From: Candidatus Streptomyces philanthi
GTDB lineage: Bacteria; Actinomycetota; Actinomycetes; Streptomycetales; Streptomycetaceae
DNA: 64,000 bases
Assembly (NCBI GenBank): GCA_018114805.1
Contig: CP073042.1
Location: 1,302,001 to 1,366,000, forward strand
Direction of reading: 5' to 3'
The notes under the pieces are model-generated. The model saw only the letters and a program-made list of their open reading frames with translations, had not been told where the DNA came from and ran no database searches. A program made the position numbers and the translations under genes. The stretch's first letter is position 1; each line of letters begins with the position of its first letter. This document shows, piece after piece, positions 1 through 44,125 of the stretch.

Positions 1-1052
1 ACGGCGAGCGGGTGGACTTCCTCCCCTCGGCCGGCACTGTGGTGGCCCTCGGCGAACCCACCGGCGAGGGCGTGCGGGTCGACTCCGGGCTCTCGGCCGG
101 CAGCGAGGTCGGCACGGCGTACGACCCGATGCTGGCCAAGGTCATCGCGTACGGCCCGGACCGCGCCACCGCGCTGCGGCGGCTGCGGGCGGCGCTCGCC
201 CAGACGACCATCCTCGGCCTGGACACCAACACCGGCTTCCTGCGCCGGCTGCTGGCCCACCCCGACGTGGTCGCCGGCGCGCTGGACACGGGCCTGGTGG
301 ACCGCGAGGCGGCCGCGCTGACGCCGGCGTCGATACCGCCGGAGGTGTACGGGGCGGCGGCGCTGCTGCGGCAGGCGGCCCTGGAGCCGGCGGCGGCGCC
401 GGACGCGTGGACAGACCCGTTCTCGATGCCCACCGGCTGGCGGCTGGGCGGGCGCGAAGCGCCGACGGCGCACCCGCTGCACGTGCCGGGCCACGACCCG
501 GTGACCGTGCGGGTGCGCGGCCGGGCGCACGACGCCGAGGTCACGGTGGGCGACGCGGAGCCGGTCGCGGCCCGCCTGGTCCCGACGGGCGCGGCCACCG
601 GTGACCTGCCCGGCACCTCGCGGGTGCTCGTGGAGTGGGCGGGCGTGACGTACGCGTTCACGCACGCCGCCGAGGCCGGGGCGGCCGGCTCCTGGCTGGC
701 CCGCGAGGGCGACGCCTGGCGGGTCGCCGACCACGACCCGGTGGAGGCCGCGCTGCGCGGCGGCGTCGCGGGCGCCGGGGCCGGCGCGCTGACCGCGCCG
801 ATGCCGGGCACCGTCACCGTGGTCAAGGCCGCCGTCGGCGACCAGGTGAGCGCCGGGCAGGGGCTGCTGGTCGTGGAGGCGATGAAGATGGAGCACGTCA
901 TCGCCGCCGCCCACGACGGCACGGTCACCGAGTTGGACGTGACGCCGGGCAGCACGGTCGCCATGGACCAGGTGCTGGCCGTGGTCACCCCGCACGAGGC
1001 GGCCGAGGCCCAGCCGGCTGGGCCGGGCGCCGCCGCCCCCGCGAAGAGCTGA
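1..1052 (+). CDS. Biotin-dependent acyl-CoA carboxylase alpha subunit, 5' end outside window
   Basis: Only the C-terminal 350 or so residues are visible; codons start at base 3 and the gene begins upstream. The fragment holds the end of the biotin carboxylase domain (AYDPMLAKVIAYGPDR) and a complete biotin carboxyl carrier domain at the C terminus, with the motif EAMKMEH; the biotinylated Lys is the codon at 885-887. Such a subunit carboxylates biotin with ATP and bicarbonate and works with a carboxyltransferase beta subunit, which is not in the window. HMG-CoA lyase follows 12 bases later and an acyl-CoA dehydrogenase after that. This is the usual leucine/isovalerate degradation set, so methylcrotonoyl-CoA is the likely substrate. 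An acetyl- or propionyl-CoA carboxylase role cannot be excluded from the fragment. Confidence 0.9.
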   Translation, partial: GERVDFLPSAGTVVALGEPTGEGVRVDSGLSAGSEVGTAYDPMLAKVIAYGPDRATALRRLRAALAQTTILGLDTNTGFLRRLLAHPDVVAGALDTGLVDREAAALTPASIPPEVYGAAALLRQAALEPAAAPDAWTDPFSMPTGWRLGGREAPTAHPLHVPGHDPVTVRVRGRAHDAEVTVGDAEPVAARLVPTGAATGDLPGTSRVLVEWAGVTYAFTHAAEAGAAGSWLAREGDAWRVADHDPVEAALRGGVAGAGAGALTAPMPGTVTVVKAAVGDQVSAGQGLLVVEAMKMEHVIAAAHDGTVTELDVTPGSTVAMDQVLAVVTPHEAAEAQPAGPGAAAPAKS

Positions 1053-19245: not shown

Positions 19246-19517
19246 GGAGGTGAGCCTTTCGCTCGTTCGGGGGGTTAGTGGGGCAGGTCCGGCATGCCGG
19301 GGACCCGTCGCCCATCATCGCCTACGAGTTCGATGAGCAACCCGCTGGGCCGCCGTGGCGTCTAGTTCCCTGCGCACCACGACCGAGGGAAACCCAACAA
19401 CGGGTAAACGTGGCGTTTCGCCGCACTCGCCAGGGGTGGTGCACGGGTTGCCGCACGGAGACCGTACGGTTGACTGCGCGCCTTTGGCCGCCTGATCACA
19501 CTTGGGAGACCGACCGG

Positions 19518-20555
19518 ATGCCCCACACCGCGCCCCGTACCGGGACACCACAGCGCACGCAGCCCCGCTGGTGGGCCGAGCTGCCGCTGATCGCCCTGGT
19601 GTACGCCGCGTACTCGGCCGGCCGACTGCTGGCGCGGGGCTCCGTGTCCAGCGCGGTCGACCACGGCCTCGGCATCCTGGAGTTCGAGCAGGCGCTGCGC
19701 ATCGACTTCGAGACGCCGCTGAACGACCTGTTCACCAAGCACGCGTCGCTCGGCATACCGGCCGACTTCGCGTACGCGTCGCTGCACTACATCGTCACGC
19801 CCGCGATCCTGGTCTGGCTGTGGAAGCGCCGCCCCACCCAGTACCGGGCGATGCGCACCTGGCTGATGCTCTCCACGCTCATCGGTCTCATCGGCTTCAT
19901 CACCCTGCCCACCTGCCCGCCCCGGCTGCTCGACGCCAGCCACGGCCTCGTGGACACGATGGCGCAGTACGGGTCGTACGGCTGGTGGGGCGGCGAGGCG
20001 AGCGCGCCGCGCGGCCTCGGCGGGCTGACCAACCAGTACGCGGCGATGCCGAGCCTGCACGTGGGCTGGGCCCTGTGGTGCGGCATCGCGCTGTACCGGC
20101 ACGGGAAGTCGGGTTGGGCCAAGGCCGCCGGCGTCGCGTACCCGCTGCTCACGACGGTCATCGTGATGGGCACCGCGAACCACTACTTCCTCGACGCGGC
20201 TGCCGGCGCGGCCGTGATGGGCCTCGGCTTCCTGCTCGCCCGGCCCGCGCTGCGGCTGACCGACCGGGTCTGGGCGCGGTTGACGGCGCGCCCGACGAGC
20301 GGCGCGTCGGCCGACGCGGGCCTCGGGGCGGCCAGGGCCGAGCCGGCGGCGGCTGACCTGGTAGCCTCCGACGCGGCCGGGGCCGAGCTGGCCGGCTGCG
20401 ACACGGCCACCGGTCCCGATCTCGGGGTGAGCGCGTCGAGTGTCAGTGGTGGGTGCGAGACTTCGGCGGGTGAGCACATCCCTCAACAGTCGACGCGAGA
20501 TGCCGACCGACACGCCACCGCCCCAGCGGACGGCGCTCCGGCAGCGGCTCGCTGA
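19518..20555 (+). CDS. PAP2-superfamily membrane phosphatase/phosphotransferase
   Basis: A 345-residue integral membrane protein with about six hydrophobic segments. The N-terminal segment is LPLIALVYAAYSAGRLLARG. The motif CPPRLLD is near residue 137. The lipid-phosphatase signature follows as MPSLHVGWALW and ANHYFLDAAAGAAVMGL, which supply the catalytic His residues. This form (CPxR, SLHVGW, NHYFLD) matches the PAP2 subgroup related to inositol-phosphoryl transferases and actinobacterial phospholipid remodelling. The tail after residue 255 is Ala/Asp-rich and overlaps the start of the next gene by up to 86 bases, so the true stop may be earlier if a frameshift is hidden there. ATG at 19518 with GGGAGA upstream. 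Confidence 0.88.
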   Translation: MPHTAPRTGTPQRTQPRWWAELPLIALVYAAYSAGRLLARGSVSSAVDHGLGILEFEQALRIDFETPLNDLFTKHASLGIPADFAYASLHYIVTPAILVWLWKRRPTQYRAMRTWLMLSTLIGLIGFITLPTCPPRLLDASHGLVDTMAQYGSYGWWGGEASAPRGLGGLTNQYAAMPSLHVGWALWCGIALYRHGKSGWAKAAGVAYPLLTTVIVMGTANHYFLDAAAGAAVMGLGFLLARPALRLTDRVWARLTARPTSGASADAGLGAARAEPAAADLVASDAAGAELAGCDTATGPDLGVSASSVSGGCETSAGEHIPQQSTRDADRHATAPADGAPAAAR

Positions 20556-21884
20556 GCTGCGGGGTCCACGGGTCGCCCCGCGCCCCCTGGACGCCCGCGC
20601 GCTGGCGGCGCTCGCGGCCAACCCCGGCTGCCGCCGCGCGCTGCTCGACGGTGCGGGAGTGGACAAGACGGCCCTGGCCAGAGCGCTGGGCTCGCCGGCG
20701 CCGTTCGGCCAGTCGCAGTTCGCCCACCAGCGTGGCCACGTCTTCGAGGCCCGCGTCACCGCGGACGGCGGCGAGCAGCTCGTCGCCCTGCTGCGGGAGC
20801 GGCTGAGCGATCCCGGGCCTCCTCCCCCGCCAGGCGGCGTGGACGCGCCCGAGCTGGTGGCCGACGGCCCCGCGGGGCGCACGGCGCGCACCCGGCTCGC
20901 GCTCGCGCGGGCCACGGCCGCCGGCCGGTGGGCCGTGCTGCGGCACCCCATGGTGAGCGTGGAGGTGGCCGGTTCGCCCGCATACCTGGAGCCGGACGGG
21001 CTGGTGGTGCACCCGGACGGGAGCTGGACCGTCGTGGAGATCAAGTCGTTCCCGATCCTGGATGGCTCGGCCGACCCGACGAAGGTGGGCGCGGCGGCGC
21101 GACAGGCGGCGGTGTACGTGCTGGCGCTGCGCGAGCTGGCCGACGAGGTGGCCGCCGACGGCGGCCCGACACCGGGCGCGGCCGGTGCGCCGGGCGCGCG
21201 GGAGCACGCGCCCGGCGGGGGGCGACGCGGGGCTGAGCGGGCCGGTGGACGGCACCGTGGGCGCGGCCGGCCTGGTGCGGCAGCGGGCGCTGCTCGTGTG
21301 TCCCAAGGACTTCTCCAACCTCCCGACGGCCGAGCTGATCGACGTGCGCAAGCAGCTCTCCGGTGACCAGTCGGCAGCTCGCGCGGCTGACACGGGTCGA
21401 GGAGATCGCCGCCGAGCTGCCGGACGACGCGACGTTCGACCTCCGGCTCGCGGACGACGGCAAGACGCCGACGCGACCGGCGGCGGAGCTGACCGCCACG
21501 GTGGACGCGGTGCCGGCGGCGTACGTACCGGACTGCCTGGCCTCGTGCGAGCTGGCCTTCCAATGTCGGCGGGCGGCGCGGGCCGCCGGCGCGGTGGAGG
21601 TGCTCGGGCGCGAGGTGCGGGGCGAGCTGGGCGGCCTGACCACGGTGGAGGCCGTGCTCGGGGCGGCGCTCGGCGAGGGGCCCACGTGCGACGCGGCCCA
21701 GCCCTCGGCCCCGGACCGGGCGACCGACCCGGACCAGGCGGTGGATGCGGACCAGGCGGCCGACCCGGCCGTGCGCGCCCTGCGCCGGGCGGCGGCGCTG
21801 CGGGCCCAGGCGCTCGCGGAGGCGGGCCTGGAGCCCGGGCCGGCCGCTCGGGCCACGGACTTTGGGGAGGTCGCGTGGCGCTGA
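20470..21884 (+). CDS. PD-(D/E)XK nuclease with Cas4/Dna2-like iron-sulfur cysteines, frameshifted
   Basis: First gene of a four-gene operon. After reconstruction the protein has about 470 residues. A Cys near the N terminus (NPGCRR, codon 20629-20631) is followed by a RecB-type nuclease core: Asp in YLEPDGLVV (about 20985-21005) and ExK in VVEIKSF (21037-21045). Further on come QRALLVCPKDFSNLP and LTRVEEIAAELPDD. The C-terminal three Cys are in CLASCELAFQC (TGC 21534, TGC 21546, TGT 21564). One early Cys plus three late Cys around a PD-(D/E)XK core is the 'iron staple' layout of Cas4, AddB and Dna2. One-base shifts near 21225 and 21358 break the frame. The start may be the GTG at 20470 or the ATG at 20500. 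The nuclease call is from motifs; the function is inferred. Confidence 0.7.
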
Positions 21885-23344
21885 TGACGACGCTGGCACG
21901 GATGGAGGCCATGCACGGCGGACGGGCGCTGCCGACCGCGACGGTGCGCCACCGGCACCTGACCGACCGGCCGCTGGCCCTGGTGCCGCTGACCACCGCG
22001 GGCGAGGCGGGCGCGCCGCTCGGCACGCTGGTGGGCACGGACCGGGACGCGCCACGGCTGCTGGTGGTGGCGCAGCCGCGCGACCGCGACCTGCGCTTCG
22101 CCTTCCTCGCCGCGCTGGCCGAGGAGATGCTGCCGCACTTCGCCGCGGGCGCGGACGAGGTGGAGTGGGAGGAGCGCAAGGAGACCGACCCAGAGACCGG
22201 CAAGCGGGTCACGGTGCAGGTCGAGCTGTGCGCCGACGCCCCGCAAGTGCTCGTGCCCAGCGGGCCCGGCATCGACTTCGTACGGCTGCTCGGCCGCTCG
22301 ATGCGGTTCCGCCGGGCGGCCGAGTACGAGCCGGAGGAGCGCGCGGGCGCGCCGCTGGCGTCGGGTCCGGGCGCCACCGAGCTGGGCGAAGGGCCACGGC
22401 ACGGTGACGTGCCACGCGCCGCGCCGGCCCGGGTGCCGCTGCTCGGACGCTGGCTGACGCACTACGGGGAGCGGGCGCGGGTGCCCGGCTCCTCGCTGCT
22501 GCTCGCGCTGACCGACCTGCTGGGCCAGCACTGGGCGACCGGCCAGAGCAGGCTTGAGGACCAGCACCTGGGCACCCTCCTGGCCTGGATCGACCCGCCG
22601 GCCGGGCTCGCGGGCCCGGAGGCGGCGCTGCGCGCCGAGACGGCCCGCGACGACCGGGGGCAGTTGCTGTGCCCGCCGGCCGGGCCGGCCACGGACACGG
22701 AGTTCGACAACCGGTTGCTGGCCCGGGCCATGGCGCGGTACGACGCGGCCCGGAGCCGCGGCGTGCCGGCGGACGTCGCCGCGGCCGAGCGCGAGGTGCG
22801 GGAGCTGGTCGCCAGCCAGCTCCGGCCCACCTGGGAGGCGCTGTGGCGCGGCGTCGACCTGCTGCGGGCGCTGCCGCCCGGGAGCAGGGTCGCCGACCGG
22901 TGGAAGCGCGACCGCTGGTCGTACACGGGCCACCGGGACCGGGTGCGGGCCGGCGAGCCGCCGTAGCCGAAGTGGGACGAAGCGGTGACCGCGGCGCGGA
23001 AGCTGGCCGCCTGCGAGACCGCGCAGGCCCAGGTCGACGCCCAGGAGGCGCTGGACGACCCGCTGGTGTTGGCGGCCCGGTGGCTGTCGGGTGAGGCGTT
23101 CGCGGGCGAGGTGGCCGAGGTCGTCATGGCGTACTCGCAGGCGAAGGTCGCGCGCCCGCGCCCGCTAGTCACCGTGCGCACCGACGACCGCCCGCTGCTC
23201 GACGAGGGCGTCAAGGTCTACCGCGCGCTGCCCGACGGCAAGACGCAGACGGCCGAGTTCGTGGCGTACGAGACGGCTGAGGCGTACGTGGCGGGTAGAG
23301 CGGGCGAGGCGCCCGGCACGGCGGGCGGGGTCGGCGGGGCGTGA
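21875..23344 (+). CDS. Unknown protein of the nuclease-helicase operon, in-frame TAG
   Basis: The GTG start overlaps the nuclease stop by 10 bases and has GGGGAGG just upstream, so translation is coupled. The protein would be 489 residues, but codon 364 (22964-22966) is TAG; the same frame continues cleanly on both sides (VRAGEPP-stop-PKWDEAVTAARKLA), most simply CAG to TAG. No signal peptide or membrane segment is present. Visible blocks are RLLVVAQPRDRDLRFAFLAAL, WEERKETDPETGKRVTVQVEL, LLALTDLLGQHWATGQSRLEDQHL, and a C-terminal beta-rich part YSQAKVARPRPLVTVRTDDR...VYRALPDGKTQTAEFVAYE that could be a barrel. I do not recognise the family. Its place between nuclease and helicase suggests a structural or DNA-loading subunit. 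Confidence 0.7.
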
Positions 23345-23345
23345 C

Positions 23346-23733
23346 GTGGCGCCGCTGGTGGTGCTGCGGCTGACCGGGGGCATGGGGCGGGGCAAGGAGC
23401 CGGAGCCCGGCTCGGTGCCCGAGGAGGGCGACCGGGTGTGCTGGACGCTGTTCGAGCACGCCCCGCGCGGCGGCCCGGAGCTGCCCGACCCCGAGCAGAC
23501 CCCGTGGACGCACGGCGGCCCACCGCCGCGCGCCGAGCCCACCGCCGCGCGCCGGGGCCGAGGCCGGCGCCGTGGCCCCGGATGACGCCGCTGGCGCCGT
23601 TCCCGCCGCCCGGTCCGCTCCCGCCGCCGACGCGGCGGGAGACGCGGGCCCGGACTGGGTCGGCGCCCCCGGCGCGCCACCGCCCGACCCCGCCTGCCAA
23701 CCCGACCCCGTGACTGACGAGGACTTCCTGTGA
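23346..23733 (+). CDS. Small unknown protein of the nuclease-helicase operon, frameshifted
   Basis: GTG two bases after the preceding stop. The first 60 residues (VAPLVVLRLTGGMGRGKEPE..., DRVCWTLFEHAPRG) are well coded. After a Pro/Ala-rich stretch the frame shifts by one base, somewhere between 23535 and 23590. The end reads AADAAGDAGPDWVGAPG...DPVTDEDFL and its stop TGA overlaps the helicase start as GTGA. The reconstructed length is about 128 residues. The overlap at both ends is the best evidence that this is a real gene rather than a spacer. No domain is recognised; the C-terminal acidic DEDF tail could be a docking peptide, which is speculation. Confidence 0.55.
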
Positions 23734-25197
23734 GCGACGCCGACGCCGCCGCCCCCGCACGCCTCGCCGACCCCCCTGGCTCCACAGGCTCCACTGGCCC
23801 CAGTGGCTCCACCGGCTCCTTCGATGCCGGCGCCGACTCCGGCGACCGCGCGGCCCCGGCCGGCCGGACCGGGTTCGCCCCCGGGGCCGCGGCCGCGGCG
23901 GCCACAGCGGCCATCCTGCGGGACACGATGGCCGATGCCGAGCGCGGCGTGGTGGTCGATTCGCCGCCCGGCGCGGGCAAGTCCACGCTGGTGGTGCGGG
24001 CGGCCCGTGAGCTGGCCGCCGCCGGCCGCCCGCTGATGGTCGTCGCGCAGACCAACGCGCAGGTGGACGACCTGGTGATCCGGCTGGCCGAGGCGGAGCC
24101 CGAACTGCCCATCGGCCGGCTGCACAGCAGCGACGCTACGGCGTACGACCCGGCGCTGGACGCGCTGCCCGCGGTGCGCACCTCCGCGAAGGTGGGCGAC
24201 CTCGCCGGGCTCGACGTGGTGATCTCGACGGCCGCGAAGTGGGCGCACACCAAGAACGTCGAGCCATGGCGGCACGCCATCGTGGACGAGGCGTACCAGA
24301 TGCGCTCGGACGCGCTGCTCGCCGTGGCAGGACTCTTCGAGCGGGCGCTGTTCGTCGGCGATCCCGGACAGCTCGACCCGTTCAGCGTGGTGGGCGCCGA
24401 GCAGTGGTCCGGGCTCTCCTACGACCCGTCGGCCAGCGCCGTCAGCACGGCTCCTGGCGCACAACCCCGGCCTGCCGCAGCACCGGCTGCCGGTCTCGTG
24501 GCGGCTGCCAGCGTCGGCCGCGCCGCTGGTCTCGGCCGCCTTCTACCCGTACACGCCCTTCCGCAGCGGCACCGAGCACGGCGACCGGCGGCTGTCGTTC
24601 GGGGTGGCGTCCGACAGTTCGGGCGTGGACCGGGTGCTGGACGTGGCGGCCGACGCGGGCTGGGGCCTGCTGGAGCTGCCCGCCCGGCACACCCCGCGCA
24701 CGGATCCGGAGGCAGTGCGCGCGGTGGCCCTGGTGGTGCGCCGGCTGCTGGACCGGGGCGGGGCCGCGACCAGCGAGCGCTCCCCCGACCCGGTGCCGCT
24801 GACGGCGGCCCGGATAGCGGTCGGCACGGCTCACCGCGACCAGGCCGCGGCTGTCCGCGCGGCTCTGGCCGAGCTGGGCGTCTCCGGCGTGGTGGCGGAC
24901 ACCGCGAACCGGCTCCAGGGGCGGGAGTTCGACGTCACGGTGGTGCTGCGCCCGCTCTCGGGCCGGCCCGACGCCACCGCCTTCCACCTGGAGACGGGCC
25001 GGCTGTGCGTGCTCGCGTCCCGGCACCGGCACGCGTGCGTGGTCGTGTGCCGGGCCGAGGTGCCCGAGCTGTTGGACGACCACCCGTCGACGGAGCCCGT
25101 CCAACTCGGCGTGAGCATGAAGTTCCCGGATGGTTGGGAGGCCCACCACGCCGTCCTGGCCCACCTCAACGAGCACCGGGTGCGCTGGCGTCCCTGA
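23730..25197 (+). CDS. SF1 (Upf1/Dna2-like) helicase, frameshifted
   Basis: Last gene of the operon, about 489 residues. Motif I is SPPGAGKSTL, motif Ia AQTNAQVDDLVIRLAE, motif II (Walker B) IVDEAYQM, motif III LFVGDPGQLDPF, motif IV region LPVSWRLPASAAPLVSAAFY, motif V ADTANRLQGREFDVTVVL and motif VI LCVLASRHRHACVVV. These are the order and spacing of superfamily 1B helicases of the Upf1/Dna2 group. A one-base shift near 24450 separates motif III from motif IV. The N-terminal 45 residues are a low-complexity G-S-T repeat. ATP-dependent unwinding or translocation on nucleic acid is inferred from the motifs. The partner nuclease in the same operon suggests joint end processing. Confidence 0.8.
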
Positions 25198-29293: not shown

Positions 29294-29367
29294 GCGCCGC
29301 TAGCTCAGTTGGTTAGAGCAGCTGACTCTTAATCAGCGGGTCCGGGGTTCGAGTCCCTGGCGGCGCA
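29294..29367 (+). tRNA. tRNA-Lys (anticodon CTT), first copy
   Basis: A full cloverleaf, acceptor GCGCCGC/GCGGCGC, anticodon stem GCTGA/TCAGC around CTCTTAA, T-arm GGGGTTCGAGTCCC. It is identical over all 74 bases to the copy at 44046-44119. A -10-like TAAGGT lies about 18 bases upstream. Confidence 0.98.
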
Positions 29368-29376
29368 CCTGAAGAG

Positions 29377-44045: not shown

Positions 44046-44119
44046 GCGCCGCTAGCTCAGTTGGTTAGAGCAGCTGACTCTTAATCAGCGGGTCCGGGGT
44101 TCGAGTCCCTGGCGGCGCA
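44046..44119 (+). tRNA. tRNA-Lys (anticodon CTT), second copy
   Basis: The same 74-base cloverleaf as at 29294-29367 without a mismatch. TAAGAT about 18 bases upstream is a -10-like element in the same place as TAAGGT before the first copy. Flanking sequences differ, so identity ends at the tRNA borders. Confidence 0.98.
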
Positions 44120-44125
44120 CGTCAC

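Follow-up and report, generated by a model that had tools for sequence, protein, structure and literature searches.

Introduction

In eukaryotes, MRN opens the resection of DNA ends and Dna2 extends it. The bacterial AddAB and AdnAB complexes carry their nuclease as a fusion with a UvrD-type motor. A bacterial DNA2-like helicase-nuclease, Bad from Geobacillus stearothermophilus, is described in passages of PMC7430649 as a 5'-3' motor that is also a single-stranded DNA endonuclease in vitro. The present analysis concerns an operon of Candidatus Streptomyces philanthi at about 20.5–25.2 kb of a 64,000-nucleotide stretch of DNA, hereafter the window (GCA_018114805.1, contig CP073042.1, positions 1,302,001 to 1,366,000, forward strand). 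The window is part of a 7.34 Mb single-contig genome, and the closest named relatives of its proteins are from Streptomyces. Its products are NUC, a nuclease; X, a scaffold-like middle protein; and HEL, a helicase motor.

The three products are predicted to match consecutive parts of solved Dna2 chains in the order of their genes: NUC maps to residues 30–412, the X C-terminus 422–570 (with a wider aligned range, 269..569, on PDB 5eaw), and HEL residue 644 onward (HEL 30–186 aligns with Dna2 644–805). Therefore, they are read as a Dna2-like machine of three subunits, and NUC-X-HEL is probably a DNA-end-processing complex whose parts are encoded separately. An initial annotation, made from the sequence of the window, had proposed a split Dna2-like system. 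That proposal is strengthened by the predicted models, in which X would supply a stalk and 1B module for which HEL has no room, and by genes that follow the Dna2 order.

Gene content of the operon

As the initial annotation described and a listing of genes and reading frames bears out, the genes at about 20.5–25.2 kb are on the same strand, densely packed and overlapping. The operon is genuine; however, it consists of three genes and not four. Two products of 489 and 128 residues had been taken as separate unknowns between the nuclease and the helicase. The related proteins P0001 (629 residues) and P0042 (515 residues) span both as one chain, so the two are parts of X and the boundary between them is a break in the window. 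Four separate genes are thus ruled out. Intact homologues measure approximately 360–460 residues for NUC, 480–630 for X and 450 for HEL.

NUC occupies 20500..21884 of the + strand. Its start had been placed at 20470, but alignment with the near intact relative P0122 moves it to approximately 20500. Three frame pieces in the window match P0122, at 20500–21192, 21182–21361 and 21363–21869. X follows at 21875..23733 (+). P0001 aligned to it at 21875–23284 and 23331–23546, and the remainder up to the stop was taken from the window frame. In addition to frame changes, X contains a single internal in-frame TAG at 22964..22966 (+) where relatives read through. HEL, at 23730..25197 (+), begins by overlapping the X stop and is present as two frame pieces. 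Alignments and models were made from intact relatives.

The nuclease

NUC is a RecB-family PD-(D/E)XK nuclease with the four-cysteine layout of Cas4, AddB and Dna2. The pattern noted initially, one early and three late cysteines around a D...ExK core, is seen in the NUC frame, and the four cysteines are invariant in 48 of 48 aligned homologues; the E of the motif is present in 44 and the K in 47. In the window frame, the early cysteine is encoded at 20629..20631, the E-P-D and E-I-K codons of the catalytic core, conserved in the homologue alignments, lie within 20989..21045, and the late triad lies at 21534..21566, all on the + strand. The triad is spaced C-x3-C-x5-C, one residue off the C-x2-C-x5-C spacing of Dna2. 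The nuclease fold expected from the sequence was recovered in the model of NUC, which is predicted to have the RecB-family fold of the Cas4, EXO5, AddB and Dna2 nucleases. A putative iron-sulfur cluster is suggested by the four invariant cysteines and the fold. No helicase was among the Pfam matches listed for NUC. Of the PDB entries matched in a profile search with NUC, two were repeat proteins of designed origin, with E-values of 1.9e-12 and 3.5e-8, and were read as compositional matches over short repeats; the other two matches were weak, and none were used.

The scaffold-like protein

For the N-terminal part of X, the predicted fold is that of a DnaQ-like exonuclease in which the first pair of acids usually found there is missing; for that reason, the domain likely binds DNA rather than cuts it. 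The C-terminus is predicted to form a helical stalk followed by a helicase 1B barrel, the module that comes just before domain 1A in Dna2 and IGHMBP2. This module corresponds approximately to 22958..23600 (+), as placed by eye from the X alignment and the matched range 299–441. The best structural match of the predicted model of the X C-terminus was IGHMBP2 / SMUBP-2 (PDB: 4b3f/4b3g), and senataxin and Sen1 were also among the structural matches. A sequence-profile search of the PDB with X gave one match with an E-value of 0.65, which was not used.

The helicase motor

HEL was initially described as a superfamily 1B (SF1B) helicase of the Upf1/Dna2 type, and the domain matches agree: its first piece matches Pfam AAA_11 (4.2e-12) and its second piece AAA_12 (2e-6). 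Motif I (PPGAGKST), conserved in the alignment, is encoded at 23964..23987 (+) and motif II (DEAY), in which D-E and Y are conserved, at 24285..24296 (+), both in the window frame. Against solved structures, the HEL profile matched SMUBP-2 best (E = 2.1e-10), followed by Dna2 (E = 3.7e-10). The profile also matched chain B of PDB 9kwf, a 434-residue protein named 'Putative deoxyribonuclease' (E = 1.8e-6).

In SMUBP-2 and Dna2, a stalk and 1B barrel precede domain 1A, an arrangement that agrees with the chain ranges matched here. HEL is minimal by comparison. Motif I begins at residue 48 (median of 91 proteins with script-chosen starts) with approximately 410 residues to follow, leaving room for two RecA-like domains and none for a stalk and 1B barrel.

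Judging from these matches, NUC, X and HEL are likely subunits of a single complex whose activity would be to unwind DNA ends and to trim the displaced strand. X may both complete the motor, because HEL probably has no 1B of its own, and hold NUC. A 5'-3' polarity would be expected by analogy with Dna2 and Bad, and the complex may serve to process DNA ends that are broken or stalled.

Conservation of the three genes

The initial annotation had asked whether the genes occur together in other genomes, and they do. After twelve duplicate rows (same contig, terminal repeat or genome) were dropped, NUC, X and HEL stand in one order on one strand in 111 of the 113 non-redundant loci whose flanking sequence is long enough, which exceeds what chance would give. 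NUC and HEL are each present in 112; the exceptions are locus L046, where the position of NUC is a run of N, and locus L074 from Micromonospora, which has no HEL. The Micromonospora loci L074 and L075 have NUC and X with no HEL match. The genes are also tightly spaced: the gap between NUC and X is no larger than 20 bases, or the two overlap, in 77 of 102 pairs, and the same holds for X and HEL in 83 of 96, with a few duplicate loci counted. Pairwise protein distances of NUC, X and HEL correlate at 0.93–0.95 across 102 loci.

X was found in 376/392 genomes of the genus, 70/394 genomes of the class (15/137 genera) and 11/296 genomes of a phylum sample, all 11 within the class. Of 41 related genomes, the window genome counted among them, 31 have HEL. 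Natural fusions to NUC or HEL were sought as X-containing chains of approximately 730–2300 residues, and none was found at E ≤ 0.001 among the 7995 candidates sharing most words that were scored. A single apparent NUC-X fusion at locus L072 may be a deletion or an assembly artefact.

Upstream of NUC and overlapping its start is a gene at 19278..20555 (+), whose product is, judging from its sequence, a putative PAP2-like membrane phosphatase. A homologue of this gene is directly 5' in 20 of 25 core loci.

Sister operons with HYP and SbcCD

Away from the core form of Streptomyces, NUC is preceded by an additional, fourth gene of approximately 280 residues (HYP), as seen in 79 of 114 loci. Within the genus HYP is found in 9/101 genomes, and the window genome is without it. 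SbcD adjoins 29 of 76 loci with HYP, versus none of 35 loci without HYP; 28 of the 29 have it in divergent orientation, and L119 has it downstream. An SbcC-like SMC gene is next to SbcD wherever the sequence is long enough. At locus L036, the NCBIfam sbcd match was above the cut-off and the sbcc match below it. A divergent SbcCD-type lineage (L268–L272 from genomes G530, G511 and G456) keeps the gene order, with about 39% identity in SbcD and 40% in X to the L036 set. Trees of X were used for grouping only; on the second of these, a quick tree with several long branches and a very long row for L277, SbcCD linkage changes three times.

In the sister operons, the adjacent SbcCD, which is of the Mre11-Rad50 type, may open a DNA end from which NUC-X-HEL would extend resection. 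An SbcD gene is present elsewhere in the window genome, as in all 19 genomes of the genus sampled, and could take the same part in the window strain.

The position of the sister copies was compared in genomes picked for their extra X copies and for having no more than three contigs, with drafts including G651 left out. SbcCD-type copies were 7.5–22.4 kb from a contig end in eight of nine places; the places come from six genomes, with both ends occupied in three. The exception, in G511, is 521 kb from the contig end and speaks against a terminal rule. The extra X copies without SbcCD were all (6/6) at least 1.19 Mb from an end. By genome, a copy within 25 kb of an end was found in 5/6 with the SbcCD type versus 0/6 without SbcCD (Fisher p = 0.015), a comparison in which the paralogues share ancestry. 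Both end stretches of G693 are inverted copies of each other, 100% identical over 19.3 kb. Two plasmid copies are 12.7 and 4.3 kb from the ends of their records, the second of which is labelled circular.

Some sister loci are followed by a second system. JetA comes after HEL in 8 of the 28 SbcD loci with enough sequence and also in L062, L064 and L220, and the Jet cluster of L036 was identified as a type I Wadjet (JetABCD) by PADLOC. Wadjet, SbcCD and HYP-NUC-X-HEL share one neighborhood in L036, L037, L058–L061, L065, L219 and L220. According to the parts of PMC10586767 consulted, Wadjet cleaves circular and not linear DNA; therefore, it would suit a linear carrier. It is possible, although doubtful, that the whole cassette is a bacterial counterpart of the MRN-Dna2 pair, with SbcCD divergent from HYP-NUC-X-HEL at the ends of linear replicons, some copies accompanied by Wadjet, and the window operon being the form that turned core in Streptomyces. 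If so, a linear replicon would carry DNA-end tools along with a weapon against circular rivals. The SbcCD pairing and the near-end copies would then link end resection to linear bacterial replicons and touch on the question of how their ends are shielded from, or fed to, nucleases.

The SMC gene of the sister loci matches LmuB of Lamassu (4e-17), with a better match to mad3 (1e-23). Because of the LmuB match, some of the terminal 'Lamassu' calls reported in PMC10482375 could be the SbcCD and HYP-NUC-X-HEL cassette. The word helicase does not occur in the main text of that source.

Alternative explanations

With breaks in all three genes, the operon of the window strain might be regarded as a decaying pseudogene set. 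However, near relatives have intact genes, and the breaks are not confined to this operon. A codon-usage hidden Markov model trained on the codons of relatives' genes counted 29 events, frameshifts or stops, across the 64 kb of the window. It counted 66 across ten 20 kb stretches elsewhere in the window genome, compared to 14 across ten stretches, also 200 kb in all, from four other genomes. The rate is uneven along the window genome, ranging from 0.5 to 8 per 10 kb. Since similar events run throughout the sampled assembly, the breaks are most likely assembly errors; a pseudogene state specific to NUC-X-HEL is unsupported and decay is improbable. The same excess over other genomes was observed in window positions 1–64000 and in loci L168, L174 and L176 of this genome, so gene calls from the assembly need caution. 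A role in RNA metabolism might be drawn from the structural matches of X to IGHMBP2, Sen1 and senataxin and from SMUBP-2 being the best sequence match of HEL; X and HEL would then make up a helicase of this kind, active on RNA or RNA-DNA, and NUC would trim R-loops or RNA. Such a role is very improbable given that NUC matches DNA nucleases, HEL fits Dna2 and SMUBP-2 about equally well, and SbcD adjoins 29 of the 76 HYP loci.

The remaining alternatives follow from the surroundings of the sister copies. Their proximity to contig ends, the inverted ends of G693 and the plasmid copies near record ends would suit a complex that serves the ends of linear replicons by processing telomeres or their replication intermediates. 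Against this, the core copy, as in the window, is far inside the chromosome, the G511 copy breaks the pattern, and genes in terminal repeats can hitch-hike. A search of the end stretches of G496, G693 and G386 for a Streptomyces telomere motif found none, so these contig ends are at most putative telomeres. Loci are also present in Actinomadura and Nonomuraea, which are usually described with circular chromosomes. A dedicated telomere role therefore appears to be a poor explanation. Somewhat better placed, although still unlikely, is a defense system against plasmid or phage DNA, the core copy being a widespread domesticated form. The neighboring JetABCD genes, the copies on plasmids and near contig ends, and the LmuB match of the SMC gene all favor it, as does the enrichment of Wadjet and Lamassu at Streptomyces chromosome extremities reported in passages of PMC10482375. 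Yet 20 of the 28 SbcD loci have no JetA match, and a distribution as wide as that of X, in 376 of 392 genomes of the genus, is unusual for a defense system. PADLOC 2.0.0, whose library is limited to known systems, gave neither NUC nor X a family match at E ≤ 1 when the window pieces were used, and none to NUC, X or HYP at E ≤ 0.001; HEL gave partial matches only, to MkoA, MkoC and others. A phage origin was rejected, as the first piece of HEL had no tblastn match in 50,697 phage records and X had two weak PHROG matches. A Dna2-like complex that processes DNA ends is thus preferred over each of these explanations.

Other features of the window

Two tRNA-Lys(ctt) genes at 29294–29369 and 44046–44120, both on the + strand, are identical over 75 shared bases. 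Since they flank approximately 14.7 kb, an integrated element may be present between them.

Comparison with known systems

Wadjet JetABCD is a neighbor of some sister copies, but it is outside of the window operon and the two have no genes in common. AddAB and AdnAB share the nuclease fold of NUC and the logic of combining a nuclease, a motor and a scaffold. They differ in that NUC is a separate protein with no UvrD-type helicase fused to it and the motor is of the Upf1/Dna2 type (AAA_11/AAA_12). IGHMBP2 (SMUBP-2) provides the best sequence match of HEL and the best structural match of the X C-terminus; in contrast to the operon, it is a single chain with no nuclease.

The resemblance is greatest to Dna2 and Bad. 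NUC has the RecB-family motifs with one early and three late cysteines and HEL is an SF1B motor of the Upf1/IGHMBP2/Dna2 group, but Dna2 and Bad carry nuclease and motor on one polypeptide whereas separate genes encode them here. Like NUC-X-HEL, Bad is bacterial, has four cysteines and combines a nuclease with a helicase (PMC7430649). Its gene is beside a methyltransferase gene in Geobacilli, and the passages of PMC7430649 consulted mention no scaffold subunit, HYP or SbcCD partner. Dna2 (PDB: 5ean/5eaw/5eax) presents the nuclease fold, the stalk and 1B barrel, and the SF1B motor in the order predicted for the operon; in the operon, X would add a DnaQ-like domain to these parts.

No paper on the NUC-X-HEL operon was found in the literature searched, with preprints and most subscription journals outside its reach. 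While the folds are known, the papers found do not describe them as three separate, conserved subunits, one of them a scaffold that is likely a dead exonuclease. If the machine is split in this way, protein families termed 'hypothetical' in almost every Streptomyces would gain a testable job. The known forms of Dna2 and of Bad, its relative in bacteria, are single chains; a natural split form would reveal which parts must touch, and each part could be removed or swapped separately.

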